Shown piece by piece: positions 5,244-20,439 of a DNA stretch of 20,439 bases; position 1 is the stretch's first letter, and each line of letters opens with the position of its first letter. Source of the DNA: a virus; the IMG/VR virus record IMGVR_UViG_3300045019_000153, positions 1 to 20,439 of that record, one strand, 5' to 3'. Both the position numbers and the translations under genes were made by a program. The notes under the pieces were generated by a model, which saw nothing but the letters and a program-made list of their open reading frames with translations, did not search any database and was not told where the DNA came from.

Positions 5244-6842
5244 TTAGTTCTTCTGGTAAATTTGGCCGTTGTACTCGAACCTGTCGCCCGGCTTGAGAGC
5301 CTGGAAACCGGGATCGTTGGGGCTGCTGAACTTGGGCACGCCAGCCGGGGCAGCAGGTGCACCAACGGGAGCACCACCACCGAGAGCGGTTGCGCGCGAA
5401 GCAGCCTCAGCGGCAGTTTTCTCACGCTCCAACTCGGCCGGGCTCTTCCACGGGCTGTGCATCTCGGTGAGGTCGGGAATCACCAAGTTGGGATCGATGC
5501 CGCCGATTTTGCCCGCAAGTGCACGCTGGTTGTCGCGCTGCTTCTCGTAAGTGCGGCGCTGATCCTGATACTTGCCGTCCATGTTCTTGAGGATTTTTTC
5601 TTTGTTCTCAGCGCTCATGCCGCCACCAGTGAGGGCCTGATTGATTGCCGCAATCATGCCTTCGGGCATGCTCTGCGTCTTCGTGCTGAGGGTGGCGATT
5701 TCGTTCTGGCTCACCACCGAACCCGGATCGTTCAACTTGTACCAGTCAAGCACCAACTGAGCCGTACCAAGGCCGCTATTGTCCTTGTAGGCACCGTCGA
5801 AGCCGGCACGGATATTCGTGGCAGCCAGGAACTTCTTGTTGTATTCGTTGGCGTTCCAAGTGGCGTTCATGTCCTTGGCGCGGTCATCGAACGTCTTCTT
5901 GTCGCCGCTCTGATCCTTCGCGGCCTGCTCCTTCATGCGCAGTTCGCTTTCGTTGTTCTGCAACAGCAACTTGCTGGGCAGTTCACCCGCGCTCCTGCCT
6001 GCGCTCTCGCTCTGCGCAACCTGACCCTTGGCAGCCGCGTAACCCGGTGCGGCGCTGATCGAGCCATCCGGCATCAGTACCTGACCGTTGGAGAATGCGT
6101 GCTTCTCCAAAGCCATGGCCTGTTCGTTCAGGGAATTGGCACGGGCATCGTAACCAGCAGCGCGAGCGCGATTGGCCTCTTCGTTGAGCGCCTTGATACG
6201 GGCCACCACCACAGCACCGGCATCGCCGGGTCGTTCGGCAGCCGGACCCTGTACAGGGGCCACAGGGGCAGCCGGGGCACCCGGAGTAACCGGGGCAGCA
6301 ACAGGAGCCCTTGCCCCTGCAGGGGCAGCCTGCGGGCCAGGAACCTGCGCGGGAGGCGCAACAGGTGCAGCGGGAGCGGCAGGACCGGGAGCGGCAGGTA
6401 CAGGGCCGGGCATCGCGCCGGGCGCGGTGTTGATCGCCGTGCTGCCAGCCGCGTTGGGGTTCACCGTGCCGTTGTACGCAGCACGAGCAGCCGCCTGCTG
6501 CGCGGCCTGCTGAGCCTGGATCTGATGCAGCGCGGTGTTGGCGCCCATGTTGCCGATTTGGGCCTTGAGGTACTGGCGCTTGAGACCGTCATCCTGCGAG
6601 CCCTGATAACTGCGGGCAAACGACTGCACGCCATCACCCAGCGCACCCAGGAAGTTCTGCGGGGTGTACGAGGGACCACCGGCCTTCATCATGCTGCCGC
6701 CGAGCGCGATGAGGCCCTGACCGAGACGCGAACGCTTCTCGGGGTCATCGAGACCAAGGCGGCTGAGGAAGCCGCCAACCGGGTTGGCGTTGGGGGCAGC
6801 ACCATTGCCGCCGCCCATGCCGAGAAGATCGAGAAAACTCAT
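5244..6842 (-). CDS. Probable internal/ejection protein, 532 aa
   Basis: The start ATG has a clear GGAGG six bases upstream. The N-terminal ~120 residues are helical and Gly/Ala-rich with a Gln-rich helix (104-118). Residues 142-208 are an extreme Pro/Ala linker. Residues 210-310 are helical and charged. Residues 370-420 (DPGSVVSQNEIATL, then a helix ending in GGGMSAENKEKIL) resemble a small helical domain often found in phage ejection and tail-associated proteins. The last 25 residues (NDPGFQALKPGDRFEYNGQ...) form a short compact module common at the ends of such proteins. It sits 12 bases after the 779-aa gene and 32 before the lysozyme-domain gene, so it is probably co-translated with them. 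No enzymatic motif is seen. Function is inferred from position, composition and motifs. Confidence 0.62.
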   Translation of the reverse strand: MSFLDLLGMGGGNGAAPNANPVGGFLSRLGLDDPEKRSRLGQGLIALGGSMMKAGGPSYTPQNFLGALGDGVQSFARSYQGSQDDGLKRQYLKAQIGNMGANTALHQIQAQQAAQQAAARAAYNGTVNPNAAGSTAINTAPGAMPGPVPAAPGPAAPAAPVAPPAQVPGPQAAPAGARAPVAAPVTPGAPAAPVAPVQGPAAERPGDAGAVVVARIKALNEEANRARAAGYDARANSLNEQAMALEKHAFSNGQVLMPDGSISAAPGYAAAKGQVAQSESAGRSAGELPSKLLLQNNESELRMKEQAAKDQSGDKKTFDDRAKDMNATWNANEYNKKFLAATNIRAGFDGAYKDNSGLGTAQLVLDWYKLNDPGSVVSQNEIATLSTKTQSMPEGMIAAINQALTGGGMSAENKEKILKNMDGKYQDQRRTYEKQRDNQRALAGKIGGIDPNLVIPDLTEMHSPWKSPAELEREKTAAEAASRATALGGGAPVGAPAAPAGVPKFSSPNDPGFQALKPGDRFEYNGQIYQKN

Positions 6843-6854
6843 TCCATGCCTCCG

Positions 6855-9194
6855 TTACTTGGCCATGAGGCCAGCAATGGAGCCAATCGCACCCATCGCC
6901 TGCGCACCGTTGTTCGTGTAGATTGGCTTAGTCTGTGTGCCGCTTGTGTTGTTGAAGCCGCCGCCATTGAGGATGTTGGCCTGATTAATGAGGCCGGTCC
7001 AAACAGCGTTCTGCTCGGCGTTCCACTTGTTGATGTCGTCCTGTAGGAACGCACCCTCACGCGCCTGCTGCGCCTGTCCCACGCCAAGTAGAGCCTGACT
7101 GTCCGCGTAGTCGTTCGCGCGTAGTCCCGGAGCCATACCGGCGGCCTGCAACTGCTGACCCACCTGCGCGTTCTGCGCAGCAGTCTGGCCGTTGGCAGCG
7201 TTCAACTGCACGCCGGCATTGCTGACCTTGTTCGCGAAGTCCTGATTTGCCATGTTGGCACCAGTGGTCATCGCGTTCATGCGGTTGGTGGTGTCGTACT
7301 TGTAGAGGTCGCCCAGCGCGTTCAGGTAGTTGAGGTTGTTGGTCTGCTGCGCAGCGCTCTGGTTGCCCAACTGGTTCGCCGCGCTCAGCCACAGGTTCGA
7401 AGCGTTGTTGCTGAGGTTGCCAGCGTTCAGCAGGGCAGCGTTATTGGTCTGCTGCTGCTGCGCGTCGATGTTGGCGACGTTCTGGCTGGCATTGATCATG
7501 TTCTTGGCAACGCTATCCGCGGTGCTGGCCTGACCAGCCAAAGCGTTCAAGCGCTGGCTCTGCTGGGTGTTGTCGATGTTGGCCCAGTTCTGGTTGGCCG
7601 AGATCGCGTTCTTCGTAGCGCTGTCCGAGAAGTTGCCCATGCCGGTGATGGCGTTGAGCCTGTTCTGCTGCTGCGCATTGTCGATGTTCGCCACGTTCTG
7701 GCTGGCGTTGACTGCGTTCTTGGCGATGCTGTCGGCGGTGCTACCCATGCCGGTGATCGCGTTGAGGCGAGCCTGCTGCTGCTGAGCATCGATGTTCGCG
7801 GCGTTCTGGTTCGCGGAGATGGCGTTCTTCGTGGCCGCATCGCTCGTGCTCGAAAGACCGGTGAGTGCGTTGAGACGTGCTGCCTGCTGGGCCTGATCCG
7901 TGCTGCTGAGGCTGTTGAGCGCGCTCTGCACGTTGCCAACGTTCTGGTTGTAGAAGTTGCCAATCGCGTTCTGAGCGTTCAACTGGTTGGTGCGCTCGTT
8001 ATTATAGTTGTTGTACATGATGTTGCCAGCATTGGTGGCCATGGCATTTGCCGTGGTCTTCTCCGCATCGTTGCGGAGGCTGGCGTAAGCACCCGAGCCG
8101 AGACGGCCCGCAGCAGCCATGCGGCTGTCGATGCCCGGGGCGATGCTGTTGTTGAACTGGTCAACGAAACTCTGGTTGGCGTTCTTTACCGCCTGATCCA
8201 AGTAGGGGTTGGCATTCAGGAAATCGCCATTGGCAGTGCTCTGCAGCATACTGGCCGCAGGGTTGCCGTTGTTGGCGAGGAACGACGCGAATGCCTGCTG
8301 AGCACCCAGCGCGCTGTTCGTATAGCCGGTGGCGTTCTGGAAGCCCGCGATAGCCGGGTTGTTGCCGGCAGTGCCCGCGAGGTTGCGAGCCTGATCCAGG
8401 CTGCCGTTGGTGTAGCCCGTCTGACCCTGGAACGCGGCGAGTGCCGGGTTGGTGTTGGCGAGCGCGGCCGCATCCTGCGCGAGACCGAGCCCACTATTCG
8501 TGTAGCCGGTCTGTCCCTTGAATGCGTCCACAGCGGGGTTGTAGCCAGCGGTACCAGCCAGGGCCGCCGCGCTGCTGCCAGCCGCGTTGGTGTAGCCGGT
8601 GGCATTGGCATAGCCTGCCTGTGCCGGGTTGCTACTGGCATTGGCCGCAGCCTGCTGAGCCAGCCCCATACCGGCGTTGGTGCCGTTGAGGCCGTTGTTC
8701 ATCAGCGCGTTGCCCGCGCTGTTGTTGATCGTGCCGGCTGCCGCTGCCGTGGCAGCCACACCGGGGTTATTCCACTGCGAGCCCGCCGCAAGCGCGTTCT
8801 GACCACCGAAGCCGTTGGCGAGGGCGCCATTGGCTACGCTGTTGACCATTCCCGAATACGGGTTGGCAGTTGGGTTCAGGCCCTGCTGTAGGCTCTCGTA
8901 GGTGCTCTTGGGCGTGCCATCGTAGGCACTGCCGGTCATCACACCGTTGGCCACGCCCTGAGCGTTGCCGTTGAGGACCGAGCCGTTACGGGCAATTGCC
9001 TCGATGTTCGCATAGGCGTCCTGTGTGGGCTTGCTCCAATCGATCACCGTGCTGTTCGGGTACGGTGCGGGAGCGCCGCTCTTACGAGCAGCCTCAGCGC
9101 TGGCGTAGAGATCAGCGTAGTAAGGCTGGGCGCCTGCCCACGGCTCAGTCTTCTGATTGCTTGTTACGGTTTCCGTGCGCGTACTGGTTCCCAT
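6855..9194 (-). CDS. Asn/Ala-rich internal/ejection-type protein with two tandem-repeat arrays, 779 aa
   Basis: The start ATG at 9194 follows AGGG within the stop region of the preceding gene (2-base gap). Residues 10-75 (TEPWAGAQPYYADLY, ... YPNSTVIDWSKPTQDAY) match the opening of many podoviral proteins annotated as internal or tail-tip. Residues 199-318 contain four units of exactly 30 residues, each starting TGYTN and containing an NPA motif. Residues 457-600 contain four units of exactly 36 residues with the core QNxANID, Gln-rich, then RLNAxxG. The C-terminus is Asn/Gln/Gly-rich and ends in a hydrophobic GAIGSIAGLMAK. Asn, Gln and Ala dominate and cysteine is absent. It is the first of three giant proteins in the likely ejection cassette. 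The specific job (pore, scaffold or DNA channel) is unknown. Confidence 0.65.
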   Translation of the reverse strand: MGTSTRTETVTSNQKTEPWAGAQPYYADLYASAEAARKSGAPAPYPNSTVIDWSKPTQDAYANIEAIARNGSVLNGNAQGVANGVMTGSAYDGTPKSTYESLQQGLNPTANPYSGMVNSVANGALANGFGGQNALAAGSQWNNPGVAATAAAAGTINNSAGNALMNNGLNGTNAGMGLAQQAAANASSNPAQAGYANATGYTNAAGSSAAALAGTAGYNPAVDAFKGQTGYTNSGLGLAQDAAALANTNPALAAFQGQTGYTNGSLDQARNLAGTAGNNPAIAGFQNATGYTNSALGAQQAFASFLANNGNPAASMLQSTANGDFLNANPYLDQAVKNANQSFVDQFNNSIAPGIDSRMAAAGRLGSGAYASLRNDAEKTTANAMATNAGNIMYNNYNNERTNQLNAQNAIGNFYNQNVGNVQSALNSLSSTDQAQQAARLNALTGLSSTSDAATKNAISANQNAANIDAQQQQARLNAITGMGSTADSIAKNAVNASQNVANIDNAQQQNRLNAITGMGNFSDSATKNAISANQNWANIDNTQQSQRLNALAGQASTADSVAKNMINASQNVANIDAQQQQTNNAALLNAGNLSNNASNLWLSAANQLGNQSAAQQTNNLNYLNALGDLYKYDTTNRMNAMTTGANMANQDFANKVSNAGVQLNAANGQTAAQNAQVGQQLQAAGMAPGLRANDYADSQALLGVGQAQQAREGAFLQDDINKWNAEQNAVWTGLINQANILNGGGFNNTSGTQTKPIYTNNGAQAMGAIGSIAGLMAK
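7395..7826 (-). repeat. Four tandem 108-bp units (36-aa repeats) in the 779-aa protein
   Basis: Residues 457-492, 493-528, 529-564 and 565-600 align without gaps. Conserved positions are Asn1, Ala/Ile2-3, Gln7-Asn8, Ala10-Asn11-Ile12-Asp13, a Gln run at 15-18, Arg20-Leu21-Asn22-Ala23 and a terminal Ala/Thr-Lys. The fourth unit diverges after its Gln run. A partial unit with QQAARLNALTG precedes the array at residues 435-456. The pattern predicts one long amphipathic helix bundle or coiled coil per unit. Confidence 0.85.
8241..8600 (-). repeat. Four tandem 90-bp units (30-aa repeats) in the 779-aa protein
   Basis: TGYTN begins at residues 199, 229, 259 and 289, exactly 30 apart. Units then show an Ala-rich helix with LxxAQ/LxQAR, an NPA(V/L/I) motif near unit position 21 and an aromatic FxGQ or FQNA ending. 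The fourth unit drifts after residue 305. A weaker unit with NPAQAGYANA precedes the first. The repeat differs in sequence and period from the 36-aa array further along the same protein. Confidence 0.85.
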
Positions 9195-9908: not shown

Positions 9909-11411
9909 TTATCTTGAGCCCGTGGGAACCGCGTCGATTTCCAATCCCATCGCCATGCTCCAACCGCCGCTCAGCGTGAGGCGATAACGGTGGTAGCGGG
10001 CATCGCTGCGCAGAGGGCACCAGCCATTCACGTTGATGGTGCTGCCCGTGCCGTACATGCCGGTCTGCTGCGGTGTGACCTTACCGGCCACCTGCACCGT
10101 GACATCGGCTCGACCGTGCACCTTGGGGCTTACGCCGCGCACGAGAGCCCTATCGCCCTGCACGCCTTGGATTTGCTGAGCCAGCAGCGCAGCCGTTGGG
10201 TACTCGCCGGTCTCGATGGTGGCGAGCATGCTGGGACCGCTGAACGAGTAGATCGTGCCTCGGTCGTTCATGGCGGCGAGGAACGCCCGACCACCGGCCC
10301 ACACAGGGCTGTCCAGAGAAGCCGGTACAGCATCGAGGCTGCCGTAGCGGTCCAGCGCTGCCAACGTCTCGGGAAGGCTGAGGCTGTTAAACAGGAACTG
10401 CACTGGGCTTGCGCCCGTGCTCCATGCGCCCGTGTCGTAGTTGAAGATGAGCAGTTGGTCGGGCGTGAGATCGTAACTGTCGATGCTGGCATAGAGCCAA
10501 ATCACCAGTTTGTTATGCGGATCGATGCTCACGGTCATGCGGTCAAAGCCGGCCTGATTGCTGTTGGCCTTGAACCAAGCGTCAATCTTGCCCTTACCGA
10601 TGGGGTTGAGTTTGTCGTTCTCCATCATGTAGAAGCCATCTTCTCCGTAGAAGAAGATTTTGCCGTCCGCACTGATCACGCTTTGCGGGATCGCGCATCC
10701 TTTGTTCTGGTAGATTGTCTTGAACTCGAAGATGGCAGGCGAGCCCACATAGACCATTTTCACGATCTGGCTCTCGAGCAGCACGGTGCCCTCTTCACCG
10801 CCGATAACAGCCTGCACCGGGCCACCGCCTAGGATGTCCTGAAAGTCTGCCTGCGTGGTGGCGCTGAAGTTCCAATCCATGGGGTTGCCGATGGCGCTCC
10901 AACGAACCCGATAGGGAACGGCACCGTCGAAGGCATCGAAGGTATTTCCGACGAGCACGAAGTCGCGCAGCGTGGTCACGTATCGGGCCTTCACCAGCGT
11001 GGTGAGGTCGCCGAATCGGGTGCCCGTGGTGGCGTTGATGTACTGAGGCGGATCGCTGTAGTTGGTGCCCACCACGAGCCCATAGGCTTCTGTGAAGCGC
11101 CAACCCTCGATCTCGGCCGTGTTGTAGCCGGCCGGGCGGCTGATGTCGGTCCAGTTGGCTGTGCCGGGGTCCTGGGTGAACAGTTTGCGCTGGCTGGCCG
11201 CGTAGACGTGGGCGTTGCGCAGGTTGTCCAGCAGCGAGATAGCCGCGTAGGGGCGGCTGGGCAGGCTCGTAGGAGCATACTGCTCAGGGCTCGGGAACGG
11301 CTTGTAGAATGGGCCGCTGCCGGGGATCACGTTGTGGGCGCGGGTAACGCCGGGATTGTTGAGCGCGGGCTGGTCGGGCAGCCATTCACCGAACGGCACA
11401 TTGAGGCTCAT
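9909..11411 (-). CDS. P22 gp10-like packaged-DNA stabilisation / tail accessory protein
   Basis: 500 aa, close to the length of P22 gp10 (about 470). Many short beta strands repeat with Trp/Tyr/Phe and turns such as YSDPPQYINATTG, GNTFDAFDGAVPYRVRWS, GGEEGTVLLESQIVKM and YGEDGFYMM, consistent with a beta-propeller-like fold. VRWSAIGNPMDWNF is characteristic of this family. In P22 this protein binds the adaptor under the portal and closes the DNA channel. The ATG overlaps the stop of the adaptor gene (ATGA), as expected for two parts made in fixed ratio. The C-terminal ~100 residues form an additional beta-rich region (VHGRADVTVQVAG...). The assignment is by family resemblance and synteny. Confidence 0.78.
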   Translation of the reverse strand: MSLNVPFGEWLPDQPALNNPGVTRAHNVIPGSGPFYKPFPSPEQYAPTSLPSRPYAAISLLDNLRNAHVYAASQRKLFTQDPGTANWTDISRPAGYNTAEIEGWRFTEAYGLVVGTNYSDPPQYINATTGTRFGDLTTLVKARYVTTLRDFVLVGNTFDAFDGAVPYRVRWSAIGNPMDWNFSATTQADFQDILGGGPVQAVIGGEEGTVLLESQIVKMVYVGSPAIFEFKTIYQNKGCAIPQSVISADGKIFFYGEDGFYMMENDKLNPIGKGKIDAWFKANSNQAGFDRMTVSIDPHNKLVIWLYASIDSYDLTPDQLLIFNYDTGAWSTGASPVQFLFNSLSLPETLAALDRYGSLDAVPASLDSPVWAGGRAFLAAMNDRGTIYSFSGPSMLATIETGEYPTAALLAQQIQGVQGDRALVRGVSPKVHGRADVTVQVAGKVTPQQTGMYGTGSTINVNGWCPLRSDARYHRYRLTLSGGWSMAMGLEIDAVPTGSR

Positions 11412-16803: not shown

Positions 16804-18210
16804 TCAGACGATGTTCCAGCCACGGTTGATGGCGATTGGCTTGTTCCAGGCATATTTACCGTAATGGGTGTTCCTGGCGTCGCTCGCGAAGGTGAGGCAC
16901 AGCGCATCCGCGATGTCAGGGCTCTTTCGGCCCAGTTTGCGAATGTCTTTCTTGCTCTGCACTTTATGCTTGAGCCCTTGGAACTCGTATGAGGGCAGGC
17001 ACAACTCGCTGATGAGCACTGGATCATTGGGGATGCTCACGTTTCCGGTTTCGAACCATTCGCGCGCCCGGAACCACAGTTCGTCGCGCAGGCTCACGTA
17101 GCGGTCGGGATCGCGCGGCTTATGGGAGACGATGACTTCCTTGACCGGCAGTCCCATGGTGCGCAGTAGGCCCGCGATGCCGTGACCCACGCCGATGCCG
17201 TCAACGCAGATCTCTGCGGGCTGGTCTTTCTTGGGGGTGCGGTCGAACTCCTCGCGCACTCGCGCAGCCAACTGCTCGGGCAGCATGGTGCCGTACACGA
17301 TGGGCGGCCCCATCATGAGGTTGTCGCGGCGCTTAATCAGCACCGATCGATCCTTGCCGGTGCCGCTGGGATCAAAGCCCCACACCACGGGGAACGTGGG
17401 CTGAGGAACCACCTCGCGGTCGATGGCCTCGACAACGATGTCCCTCGGGATAACGCCGTCTTCGTCCTCAAGCGGGAACTCACCCAGCACCTTCACCCGG
17501 TACTCGTTGGAGCCCACGCCGCCGAACGAAGCCGTGATGCTCCTCAAGCGCTCAGCGGTGATACCGGGGTTGTCGGTGAGTTTGCCGTGGACCGGCGTCC
17601 ACTCCTTGCTGATCTCAGGGTGTTCCCAAGTGTCAAAGAAGAAGCCGCTCGTTCGTGAGGGGTTGCTGATGATGCAGAGTTTGGGGTTTGGATCCGTGAA
17701 GATGTTCTGCAACTCCGCGAACACTTCATCGGGCACACCCGTTGCCTCGTCTACAAACACAAAGTTGTTTTTCTGGTGAATTCCACGCGCAGTCTCAACG
17801 TTGTCTTTGTTGGCTAGGCGTGTTTCCGCGAATGCTCCAGTTGGGTTATCGCGTCGGTAAATCTTGGTGGCTGTGTAATCGAGGTGTTCCTTCAGGTACG
17901 GAGGCAACTTCGCATAGAGGTTGCCGACCTCTTTCCAGATACCTGCTTTGATCTGGTCCTCACTTGGACCAAAGATCGTCACCTGCACGTCGTTGTGTGT
18001 GATCAGCGCCCAATGGATCAGCACGGCCATGGAAAACGTCTTGCCGAAGCCGATACCGCCTCGGAACGTGATCTGGCTGTTGCGCTGATATTTGGTGACG
18101 AACTCCACCTGCTTGGGGTTCAGCGTCGTACCAAAAGCCTGTTGTGCAAAGAACGAAATATCGTTGCGGAACTGCTCTAGCAGCAGCACCAAATCGTCAT
18201 TGGTTGCCAT
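16804..18210 (-). CDS. Terminase large subunit
   Basis: 468 aa, a complete ATPase-nuclease. A Walker A-like FRGGIGFGKTF sits at 49-59 (Lys57, Thr58), Walker B with catalytic Glu in FVFVDEA at 150-156, and a coupling-type ISNPSRTSGFFFD motif at 181-193. RNase H-like nuclease acidic residues are probable at Asp280 (VVWGFDPSG), Asp337 (EICVDGIG) and Asp432/Asp435 (PDIADAL). It drives packaging through the portal encoded 37 bases downstream. The ATG has no strong ribosome site; the leader instead holds an inverted repeat and a decamer shared with another gene. No small-subunit gene is evident upstream, where one is normally found. Confidence 0.93.
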   Translation of the reverse strand: MATNDDLVLLLEQFRNDISFFAQQAFGTTLNPKQVEFVTKYQRNSQITFRGGIGFGKTFSMAVLIHWALITHNDVQVTIFGPSEDQIKAGIWKEVGNLYAKLPPYLKEHLDYTATKIYRRDNPTGAFAETRLANKDNVETARGIHQKNNFVFVDEATGVPDEVFAELQNIFTDPNPKLCIISNPSRTSGFFFDTWEHPEISKEWTPVHGKLTDNPGITAERLRSITASFGGVGSNEYRVKVLGEFPLEDEDGVIPRDIVVEAIDREVVPQPTFPVVWGFDPSGTGKDRSVLIKRRDNLMMGPPIVYGTMLPEQLAARVREEFDRTPKKDQPAEICVDGIGVGHGIAGLLRTMGLPVKEVIVSHKPRDPDRYVSLRDELWFRAREWFETGNVSIPNDPVLISELCLPSYEFQGLKHKVQSKKDIRKLGRKSPDIADALCLTFASDARNTHYGKYAWNKPIAINRGWNIV

Positions 18211-18213
18211 AAG

Positions 18214-18240
18214 ATACCATTATCTCTGAAACTATGGTAT
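18214..18240 (-). promoter_or_regulatory. Inverted repeat in the terminase leader
   Basis: ATACCAT (18214-18220) and ATGGTAT (18234-18240) are perfect inverse complements with a 13-base spacer. The nearer arm lies three bases upstream of the terminase ATG region and would cover its weak ribosome-binding zone, while the far arm overlaps the GTATTTATGC decamer. It could be an operator or an mRNA hairpin limiting terminase translation. Confidence 0.45.
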
Positions 18241-18246
18241 TTATGC
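18237..18246 (-). promoter_or_regulatory. Candidate promoter/leader element, copy 1 (GCATAAATAC on minus strand)
   Basis: The decamer GCATAAATAC on the minus strand begins its near edge 27 bases upstream of the terminase ATG. The identical decamer lies 28 bases upstream of the GTG of the 266-aa gene. TAAATA is compatible with a -10 hexamer, but no convincing -35 is seen at standard spacing, so a phage-specific promoter or regulator site is equally possible. Confidence 0.35.
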
Positions 18247-18328
18247 AAACTTTACCTTTTTTGCTTTTCGAGCCGGATTTAAGGAAGGCCTAATCAGGCA
18301 GATGGTAATCATGGCACAGGAGGATGCC

Positions 18329-18898
18329 ATGCAAATGAATTTCACAAAGACACTGAATATTATTACCGGACTTATTTGCATCGCAATCGCTGTGCGTGTG
18401 GTTCAAGCATATATGCCAACCTCTAGCGCGCCCAAAACAGTGGCCCAGCAGTCGGCAAATGAAAGTGGCTTCAGAGAAAGTAGCCCCTCCCGCAACATTC
18501 AGCCGGCTATGGCTAAGCAGCATGTTGAAGATAGCACTCTGTCGATATTCAAGCCGGGAACTTATTATTACATAGCGAACCATAAAAGCGATATATCTCT
18601 AAAGCAGATCGCCTCTTACTGCTCAAAAATCGAGAAGTTCGATAAATTTGGAATGCTCGGCTCATTGTCTACAGGGCCTGAATACGGTCCTCTGGCTGAA
18701 CTTGTCAGAGCGAACGGCTATGACCGGATCGAAACGACCACTGGATCTGACGGCCTGTGCAGAGTTAATATTGGAATATCGGGCATTTACAATGGTAAAA
18801 GTTATAAATTTAGGAAAAGTTGCCTTCTCACAGCAGTTCGCATCGACGATGATGGGGCGGTTGCCGCTAAATCTCTCAATATGTACGACTGTGACTAA
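18329..18898 (+). CDS. Membrane-anchored, cysteine-bearing protein of unknown function, 189 aa (moron-like)
   Basis: I do not recognise the family. The start is set by AGGAGG at 18318-18323, five bases before the ATG at 18329. In-frame ATGs at 18302 and 18311 lie upstream but lack such a site. Residues 10-28 (IITGLICIAIAVRVVQAYM) form a signal anchor or uncleaved signal. A Ser/Ala/Gln-rich linker follows to ~70, then a compact domain containing FKPGTYYYIANHKSD, SLKQIASYC, GPEYGPLAELVRANGYDRIE and a C-terminal NMYDCD. Cys98, 144, 165 and 188 could pair as two disulfides outside the membrane. The gene is visibly AT-richer (about mid-40s % GC by eye) than its neighbours and runs opposite to them, suggesting recent acquisition. 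Exclusion or host-conversion roles are possible but unsupported. Confidence 0.8.
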   Translation: MQMNFTKTLNIITGLICIAIAVRVVQAYMPTSSAPKTVAQQSANESGFRESSPSRNIQPAMAKQHVEDSTLSIFKPGTYYYIANHKSDISLKQIASYCSKIEKFDKFGMLGSLSTGPEYGPLAELVRANGYDRIETTTGSDGLCRVNIGISGIYNGKSYKFRKSCLLTAVRIDDDGAVAAKSLNMYDCD

Positions 18899-18945
18899 AA
18901 TGACCAAATCTCGATCAGAAAAAGATCGTACGAAAAATAGAGCCG

Positions 18946-19746
18946 TCAATCAGATTTCTTGCTCTGTAACTCCGTGATGGTGCTGAGCGTGTCGCGGATG
19001 ACGCGCTGAACCTCTTCCTCGCTCTCTGTGATAGCGCCGCGGTTAAGCCAATCGGCACTCAGCGAGCCCGTGGGCAAACCCTGCGGGCTCACCTGTCCGC
19101 ACGCGATTTTGAGGTCCGTGCCGTTCTTGTCGAAGCGGCTGCGCAGGTAACTGCTCTTGATGTCCTCGACGTGCCACAGCCCGCATGCGCCTTCGCGGTT
19201 GCCCAGCGGAAACATCACGATCTGCAATTCGCTGCTGAGGCTGGCCGGCACGCTCTGCGCTCCGGCGATGTCGTAGTCCACGCCCGGCTTGGGATACACA
19301 CATACGGCGCTGGTGTAGCGCCAGGGAAGCGGATTGCTCGTGGTGGGCGTACTCTCGCCGCTGTAGCGGAAGTAGATCAGGCGATGAGCGCTGATGCGCT
19401 TGCCCACGTTCTCAACGAGATTGCAAACCTCGTCCTCTTTGCGGATGTCCTTGCGGGCCTTGGTAGCCTGCTGCTCAAGCACGGTGCTGCTGCTGGCCGG
19501 CAGTAGGCCCACTAGGGCAGTGCGAAAGCCCTCGTTGGCGTAGGAGGCATAGCCGAGCGCTGCCAGGGCAAGGATCGCGGTCACGATTAGTGAGGACACT
19601 GGGCTGCGCTGGAACACGCCCACGATGCTGCCGAAGGCGTTAGCGACGGCGCCGGGGTCTTGGTAGGCGGGCTTGCTGCTGCGCTTGGGCTTGCTCGCGG
19701 GTGCCTGCTCGATCTCATTGCAGGTGTTATCGTTTTCGTCGGCCAC
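18946..19746 (-). CDS. Single-pass membrane protein with cysteine-bearing ectodomain, 266 aa
   Basis: I do not recognise a family. The preferred start is GTG at 19746, seven bases after AGGGGG. An ATG at 19899 would add 51 residues of low-quality sequence and begin inside the loop of an inverted repeat. Residues 1-50 are hydrophilic (probably cytoplasmic). Residues 51-70 (SSLIVTAILALAALGYASYA) form one membrane helix. Residues 85-115 are a charged helix, and the rest is an ectodomain with Cys108, 149, 188 and 216 and strands such as RLIYFRYSG and LQIVMFPLG. The C-terminal helix (EEEVQRVIRDTLSTITEL) may oligomerise. GC content matches the phage genes. It lies upstream of the terminase and convergent with the AT-rich gene. 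Lysis, spanin-like or entry roles can be imagined, but nothing in the sequence decides. Confidence 0.78.
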   Translation of the reverse strand: MADENDNTCNEIEQAPASKPKRSSKPAYQDPGAVANAFGSIVGVFQRSPVSSLIVTAILALAALGYASYANEGFRTALVGLLPASSSTVLEQQATKARKDIRKEDEVCNLVENVGKRISAHRLIYFRYSGESTPTTSNPLPWRYTSAVCVYPKPGVDYDIAGAQSVPASLSSELQIVMFPLGNREGACGLWHVEDIKSSYLRSRFDKNGTDLKIACGQVSPQGLPTGSLSADWLNRGAITESEEEVQRVIRDTLSTITELQSKKSD

Positions 19747-19773
19747 CTGCGGTCCCCCTGTAAGTCCTTTCAC

Positions 19774-19783
19774 GTATTTATGC
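19774..19783 (-). promoter_or_regulatory. Candidate promoter/leader element, copy 2 (GCATAAATAC on minus strand)
   Basis: Identical to the decamer upstream of the terminase gene and placed at almost the same distance (28 versus 27 bases) from its start codon. Flanking bases differ completely, with CCCCC before and GTGAAAGG after, so the shared part is confined to the decamer. Confidence 0.35.
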
Positions 19784-19873
19784 GGGGGCAGCAAAATCGA
19801 GTGCTTTGCAGGGCGGGTAATAATGGTTAGGCATGAAGTGCTGACTACGTCTTCCCCCCTCAGACCGGTCAGC

Positions 19874-19914
19874 CCTCGGCGAGCAGTTTGACCTGTCATC
19901 GCTGCTCGCCGAGG
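19874..19914. repeat. Nested inverted repeat: 13-bp perfect arms with a second dyad in the loop
   Basis: CCTCGGCGAGCAG (19874-19886) and CTGCTCGCCGAGG (19902-19914) are perfect inverse complements with a 15-base spacer. Within the spacer TGAC-CT-GTCA (19889-19898) forms another dyad whose centre is within half a base of the outer one. No T-run follows on either strand, so it is not an ordinary intrinsic terminator. It could be a recombination or attachment site, an operator for a dimeric or tetrameric protein, an origin hairpin or a structured RNA. Confidence 0.8.
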
Positions 19915-19923
19915 CCACAGACA

Positions 19924-19946
19924 GAAAAGGCCCCTTATGGAGGCCT
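19924..19946 (-). terminator. Leftward intrinsic terminator
   Basis: Read on the minus strand, AGGCC, an inner CC/GG pair around ATAA with one bulged base, and GGCCT are followed by TTTCTG. This is the compact layout of many phage terminators. It would stop leftward transcription entering from the right, insulating the 266-aa and terminase genes. No leftward gene is visible to its right within the window. Confidence 0.55.
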
Positions 19947-19977
19947 AGCGGGAGGAATGAACGACGCCCGGATTGGT

Positions 19978-19996
19978 GCGTTGGTGGCACCAACGC
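19978..19996. promoter_or_regulatory. Perfect 19-base palindrome upstream of the response regulator
   Basis: GCGTTGGTG, a central G, and CACCAACGC form a perfect dyad ending 26 bases before the ATG of the regulator. A further TTGGTG half-site lies just to its left (19973-19978), so the element may bind more than one dimer. It fits an operator controlling the regulator, or a hairpin in its leader. Confidence 0.55.
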
Positions 19997-20022: not shown

Positions 20023-20439
20023 ATGAGCCAATCGCCGGATGCATCTTCCCCCTACGCCCTTGTGGTGGATGATGACGGGCTGATCCGCATGGATGCCATG
20101 GACATTCTGGAGGATGCCGGCTTTCACACCTTCGAGGCTGCCGATGGCGACGAGGCTATGCACCTGTTGGCGCAGCAGCACGGTGTGATTGTGCTGCTAT
20201 TCACGGATGTTCAGATGCCTGGAACCCGCAACGGCTTTGCAGTGGCCCGGGAGACGGCTCGTCAGTGGCCTCACATCTCCATCGTGGTGGCGTCGGGTCA
20301 TGTGCAGCCGGGGCCGGATGATCTACCCGATGGGGCCGTGTTCATCGGCAAGCCATTCACAGCCGAGATGGTGCACGACCACCTGCAGGAGATTCTACCT
20401 GACGGACAAAAGCCGGAGCCGCTGCGCCGCATGGCCTAA
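20023..20439 (+). CDS. Stand-alone CheY-like response regulator (receiver domain only)
   Basis: 138 aa, a single receiver domain without an output domain. The acidic pocket is Asp16-Asp17-Asp18 (LVVDDDG), the phosphoacceptor Asp62 in FTDVQMPG, the switch Ser91 in VVASGH and the invariant Lys110 in IGKPF. The pattern D-V/I-Q-M-P-G with a WPHISIVVASGH strand and DLPDGAVFIGKPF is typical of alphaproteobacterial single-domain regulators. It would receive phosphate from a histidine kinase and act through protein contact. No good ribosome site precedes the ATG; a TAG lies six codons upstream in frame, so no longer version exists. The stop codon is the last base of the window. It may be a host gene flanking a prophage or a regulator carried by the phage. 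Confidence 0.9.
   Translation: MSQSPDASSPYALVVDDDGLIRMDAMDILEDAGFHTFEAADGDEAMHLLAQQHGVIVLLFTDVQMPGTRNGFAVARETARQWPHISIVVASGHVQPGPDDLPDGAVFIGKPFTAEMVHDHLQEILPDGQKPEPLRRMA

Follow-up and report, generated by a model that had tools for sequence, protein, structure and literature searches.

What role, if any, a perfect inverted repeat plays at the edge of a phage late module is the question raised by the dyad at positions 19874 to 19914. The window, meaning the whole stretch of DNA that was analysed, is an IMG/VR record of 20,439 bases. Its minus strand encodes SU10-type portal, major capsid, and adaptor domains as well as a terminase and a tail lysozyme, and its left end is cut inside a tail fibre gene; this late module belongs to a tailed double-stranded DNA phage and is of a Methylobacterium-type prophage. 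The dyad lies between two divergent genes. On the minus strand, at 18946 to 19746, is the first late-strand gene beside it, a 266-codon gene of unknown function with a GTG start and a likely membrane helix. On the plus strand, at 20023 to 20439, is a CheY-like response regulator (PF00072), whose nearest relatives all come from Methylobacterium or Methylorubrum, at 82% identity or less. Several of these relatives sit in contigs of low GC content for those genera, and one adjoins a ParA-like gene. The palindrome GCGTTGGTGgCACCAACGC (19978 to 19996), 26 nt before the response regulator start codon, is a possible operator. The earlier note had placed the dyad exactly where orientation, gene type, and probably replicon ownership change. 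The divergent genes and the border between phage late and non-phage-type genes bear this out; the switch from phage to host-like DNA is placed only to within about 19785 to 19990. Our preferred answer, held with about as much confidence as doubt, is that the dyad is an ordinary stem-loop of an intergenic spacer, likeliest the U-less second hairpin in a tandem barrier to transcription.

The outer dyad exists as described and is far beyond chance. Its arms, CCTCGGCGAGCAG (19874 to 19886) and the complementary CTGCTCGCCGAGG (19902 to 19914), are each 13 nt long, match perfectly (100% complementary), as had been claimed, and enclose a noncoding 15-nt loop. No other perfect inverted repeat with arms of at least 13 and a loop of 3 to 30 occurs in the whole window, and none of that size arose in 300 first-order Markov copies of the window or in 3,000 such copies of the 276-nt intergenic region. 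As RNA, either strand is predicted to fold at -28 to -30 kcal/mol, with folding z-scores of -4.35 for the plus strand and -3.55 for the minus strand. The inner TGACctGTCA (19889 to 19898) is present as described, and its centre, at 19893.5, lies within half a base of that of the outer dyad, at 19894; by itself it is not significant. A 4-bp dyad centred to within 0.5 nt is found in 4% of random 15-nt loops, and one anywhere in the loop in 13%, so the "nested" character of the structure carries little weight. The sequence TGACNNGTCA is expected 0.38 times per window and has no second copy there. The left arm also holds the palindrome CTCGgCGAG (19875 to 19883), repeated in the right arm at 19905 to 19913. 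Indeed, CTCGNCGAG occurs twice in the window, both times in the arms of the dyad and 30 bp apart centre to centre; since the arms are perfect, the second box is an automatic consequence of the first. Rfam yielded no match to the region at the gathering score, and relaxed limits gave only an implausible subthreshold match at 19751 to 19816. A tRNA scan was empty or below threshold, and a scan for tandem repeats beside the dyad found none.

The tails that flank the dyad, CCACAGACAG on the plus strand and GCTGACCGGT on the minus strand, are not T-runs, and the earlier note was right on this point for both sides. A canonical Rho-independent terminator has a GC-rich stem with a T-run at once after it; the scan for terminators reported only a terminator-like stem on the minus strand at 19946 to 19928, AGGCCTCCATAAGGGGCCT then TTTCTGTCTG, with the T-rich tail TTTTCTGT. 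The dyad begins 13 nt past this stem on that strand. The claim that the structure is not a simple terminator therefore holds for the dyad, which is not canonical, and overlooked the terminator-like stem 13 nt away. Shuffles of 2.4 kb yield about 1.9 terminator-like sites, so that the call at 19946 to 19928, being within the expected number, rests on position and form. What the dyad does resemble is a U-less (I-shaped) hairpin, a strong noncoding stem lacking a U-tract. Such hairpins are common in Methylobacterium DNA: 314 kb contained 11 perfect hairpins with arms of at least 12 and loops of 3 to 20. Five fell outside predicted genes, and all five lacked a U-tract. A strong U-less hairpin is therefore unremarkable here. 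The related phages likewise carry several hairpins with arms of 10 to 13. Ingham reportedly described U-less terminators of actinophage phiC31 in 1995. In GC-rich bacteria, U-less "I-shaped" hairpins lower downstream expression in vivo, and evidence on whether they terminate transcription is contradictory (PMC5335608).

The order of elements suggests how such a hairpin might act. Read along the minus strand, the terminator-like stem is followed after 13 nt by the dyad, then by a TAAATAC motif and the late gene; stem and dyad together lie upstream of the 266-codon phage gene and antisense-downstream of the CheY-like gene. It is because the dyad directly follows the terminator-like stem and precedes a putative late promoter that we propose a role as second hairpin. 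The dyad would be transcribed and would lower read-through, and the pair may stop or slow transcripts that run antisense through the response regulator gene toward the late genes. Several points speak against such a barrier. No known minus-strand gene upstream of the terminator needs a stop, the response regulator being on the other strand; the terminator-like stem is within the number that shuffling produces; and the evidence that U-less hairpins terminate is itself contradictory (PMC5335608). The dyad shares with U-less hairpins (PMC5335608), and with those of phage phiC31, a long GC-rich stem, an intergenic position, and the lack of a U-tract. It differs in its long loop (15 nt) and in its position upstream of a promoter-like motif and not directly after a known same-strand gene.

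The window has five copies of the putative late promoter element, TAAATA[C/G]. The minus strand carries all five, against an expectation of 1.5 for the two strands together. Four of them (at 19780, 18243, 14375, and 2269) stand 33 to 43 nt before the starts of the 266-codon gene (19746), the terminase, a 330-amino-acid gene, and the tail fibre gene, the copy nearest the dyad (TAAATAC, 19774 to 19780, minus strand) being 34 nt before its start codon. In two related phages, L003 and L005, the same four genes have the motif at a similar distance (one L005 open reading frame is called with a longer start). In a third, L004, it was seen before two of the four. The phiEco32-like phages use phage sigma factors and short late-promoter elements; that of phiEco32, tAATGTAtA, differs from the motif in the window (PMC8948821).

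These three relatives are the viral contigs that encode the 266-codon late gene, at 94% (L003), 80% (L004), and 64% (L005) identity; their terminases are 98%, 93%, and 86% identical to that of the window, and profile scans of viral contigs again recovered these three, along with distant terminases. DNA similarity to the window ends between 16 nt (L003) and 38 nt (L004) ahead of the late gene start codon, and the dyad is missing from all three phages. In L003 and L005 the same slot is occupied by a canonical terminator (GGCCCCC..GGGGGCC-TTTTT), placed after the upstream gene and just ahead of the TAAATAC motif that belongs to this late gene. This terminator shares the position of the dyad and differs from it in sequence and in having a T-run. 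L004 has a divergent 289-amino-acid gene there instead of a terminator. Further upstream in L003 and L005 come a DUF5681 gene, whose position suggests a small terminase, a small serine recombinase gene, and about 15 kb more genes, where the window holds the response regulator. The contents of the slot differ in every related phage; it is variable and often insulated. Either the window prophage was rearranged or truncated at this slot, or the response regulator is cargo.

The main rival to a second barrier hairpin, and a possibility we take seriously while thinking it on balance unlikely, is that the dyad is a functionless relic or chance product of cargo exchange, left over as the slot was rebuilt in each phage. 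The searches are consistent with this. A search for the arms, which the earlier note had proposed, turned up no dyad: the exact arm pattern was found in none of the IMG/VR viral contigs and in none of 111 Methylobacterium genomes, and relaxing the arms to 11 bp gave two matches in the viral contigs, both on unrelated GC-rich contigs and each within or next to predicted genes. Against the 111 genomes, the intergenic DNA had short matches only (best E value, 0.003). Comparison with phage and plasmid collections gave no phage match, and the plasmids matched the response regulator gene only. The late gene itself was found in none of 397 family and 397 order genomes at an E value of 1e-6, a search that had no positive control. 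That the searches located the dyad in none of the relatives, host genomes, or viral contigs, that the neighbouring slots are highly variable, and that the arms resemble common GC-rich coding words, with short matches across Methylobacterium genomes, would all fit a relic. However, drift alone is unlikely to produce or preserve a perfect 13-bp dyad. The earlier note would have given up its reading if the dyad lacked conservation and also folded as a simple terminator. Conservation was indeed not found, while the simple terminator lies beside the dyad and is not the dyad itself. Host-side homology before the response regulator was also considered as a candidate. The best of about 21 loci, L010, had a shuffle P value of 0.007, which is not significant after correction for that number, and its leftward extension had a P value of 0.2; it was rejected.

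We think it improbable that the dyad is an operator at which a dimeric or tetrameric regulator, bound to the CTCGsCGAG boxes or to TGACctGTCA, controls the divergent late operon and response regulator. An intergenic position between divergent genes would suit an operator, as would the restriction of CTCGNCGAG to two copies in the window, both at the dyad, but the second box is automatic in a perfect dyad and the inner dyad is not significant. An operator motif might be expected to be repeated or conserved, and neither was observed: there are no copies before other genes and the dyad is not conserved. The one regulator-like protein found in the window is a receiver domain without a recognised DNA-binding domain. 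The proposal of a tetrameric operator is thus not supported, the inner dyad being insignificant, a second copy being absent from the window, and conservation not having been found. A broader proposal makes the dyad the operator or exchange point for a cargo slot that lies upstream of the late operon in a rare family of Methylobacterium prophages; through this slot, a response regulator of host type would have been acquired and linked to the control of the late genes. We consider this proposal very unlikely.

We give scant credence to a recombination or attachment site, or to a scar left when the response regulator gene came to lie beside the late module, an event in which, for instance, the small serine recombinase known from the relatives might have acted. 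The dyad is near the meeting point of phage-like and host-like DNA, and the relatives carry extra genes here that the window lacks. Furthermore, the 15-mer CCTTTTCTGTCTGTG beside the dyad (19916 to 19930, minus strand) recurs in L003 and L004, where it forms the tail of the terminator that follows the small recombinase gene. This sharing is suggestive only and could be due to chance; a 17-mer with the same core is present in unrelated contigs too. No second copy of the dyad occurs in the record. The family integrase is at the wrong place as well. Beyond the tail fibre gene, L003 and L005 encode a large serine integrase with Resolvase, Recombinase, and zinc-ribbon domains, about 20 kb from the position of the dyad, with the late module in between. 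The L005 DNA beyond this integrase matches a genome of the genus Methylobacterium at 100% over 1,080 bases and 99.5% over 1,177 bases, and the similarity ends at CAACCGGCACGGTTAATGG, about 45 nt ahead of the start predicted for the integrase. Because a search of that genome for the late gene found nothing and its sequence across the junction is non-phage, the genome represents an empty site. The L005 junction is thus beside the integrase, at the far end of the late module from the dyad, which it does not resemble. Provided that the window phage uses the same integrase, the dyad is therefore not the attachment site of the family integrase, and the suggestion of an attachment site is not supported for the phage's own integrase. 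An attachment site belongs beside the integrase gene at a prophage end, which is not where the dyad lies; the integrase of the window phage is outside the record. Sites of large serine integrases are short imperfect repeats around a core dinucleotide (PMC5937489). The dyad is like them an inverted repeat of about 40 bp, whereas its arms are long and perfect and no integrase adjoins it. It also lies at the wrong end of the late module and does not resemble the junction of the related prophage.

An origin hairpin for single-strand initiation, which had also been suggested, is scarcely credible: a strong hairpin is all that favours it, there is no adjoining replication gene or tandem repeat, and the module is that of a tailed double-stranded DNA phage.

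As a tandem barrier, the dyad would add one more case of a terminator and a U-less hairpin insulating a late operon. It is ordinary for the Methylobacterium group and matters little by itself. The context is more useful, namely, a little-sampled Methylobacterium prophage family in which a single conserved gene is flanked on either side by variable cargo slots; in a relative, one of these slots holds a SIR2 defence-type gene. In the slot between the 266-codon gene and the terminase, the window has AT-rich DNA (18210 to 18946, about 45% GC) with no recognised gene, L005 has a SIR2-domain gene (5813 to 7198) that matches the candidate defence family PDC-S25, and L004 has a DUF5677 gene (5783 to 6721).

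Several minor observations concern the record and its relatives. The record breaks off within a gene on the left, whereas on the right (20437 to 20439) it ends exactly on the response regulator stop codon, which suggests that a provirus caller cut it at a gene boundary on that side only. In L003, a central 1.1-kb stretch of the tail lysozyme gene (G001:C1:30925-32037; L092, about 9930 to 11040) is inverted relative to the window and L005, which reflects either a segment capable of inversion or a fault in the assembly. The palindrome ATAGAAgcatgTTCTAT is present in L003 (2627 to 2643, downstream of the small serine recombinase gene) and in L004, and L005 (2246 to 2262, likewise downstream of the recombinase) carries its reverse complement, ATAGAAcatgcTTCTAT; this palindrome is a possible recombinase site.
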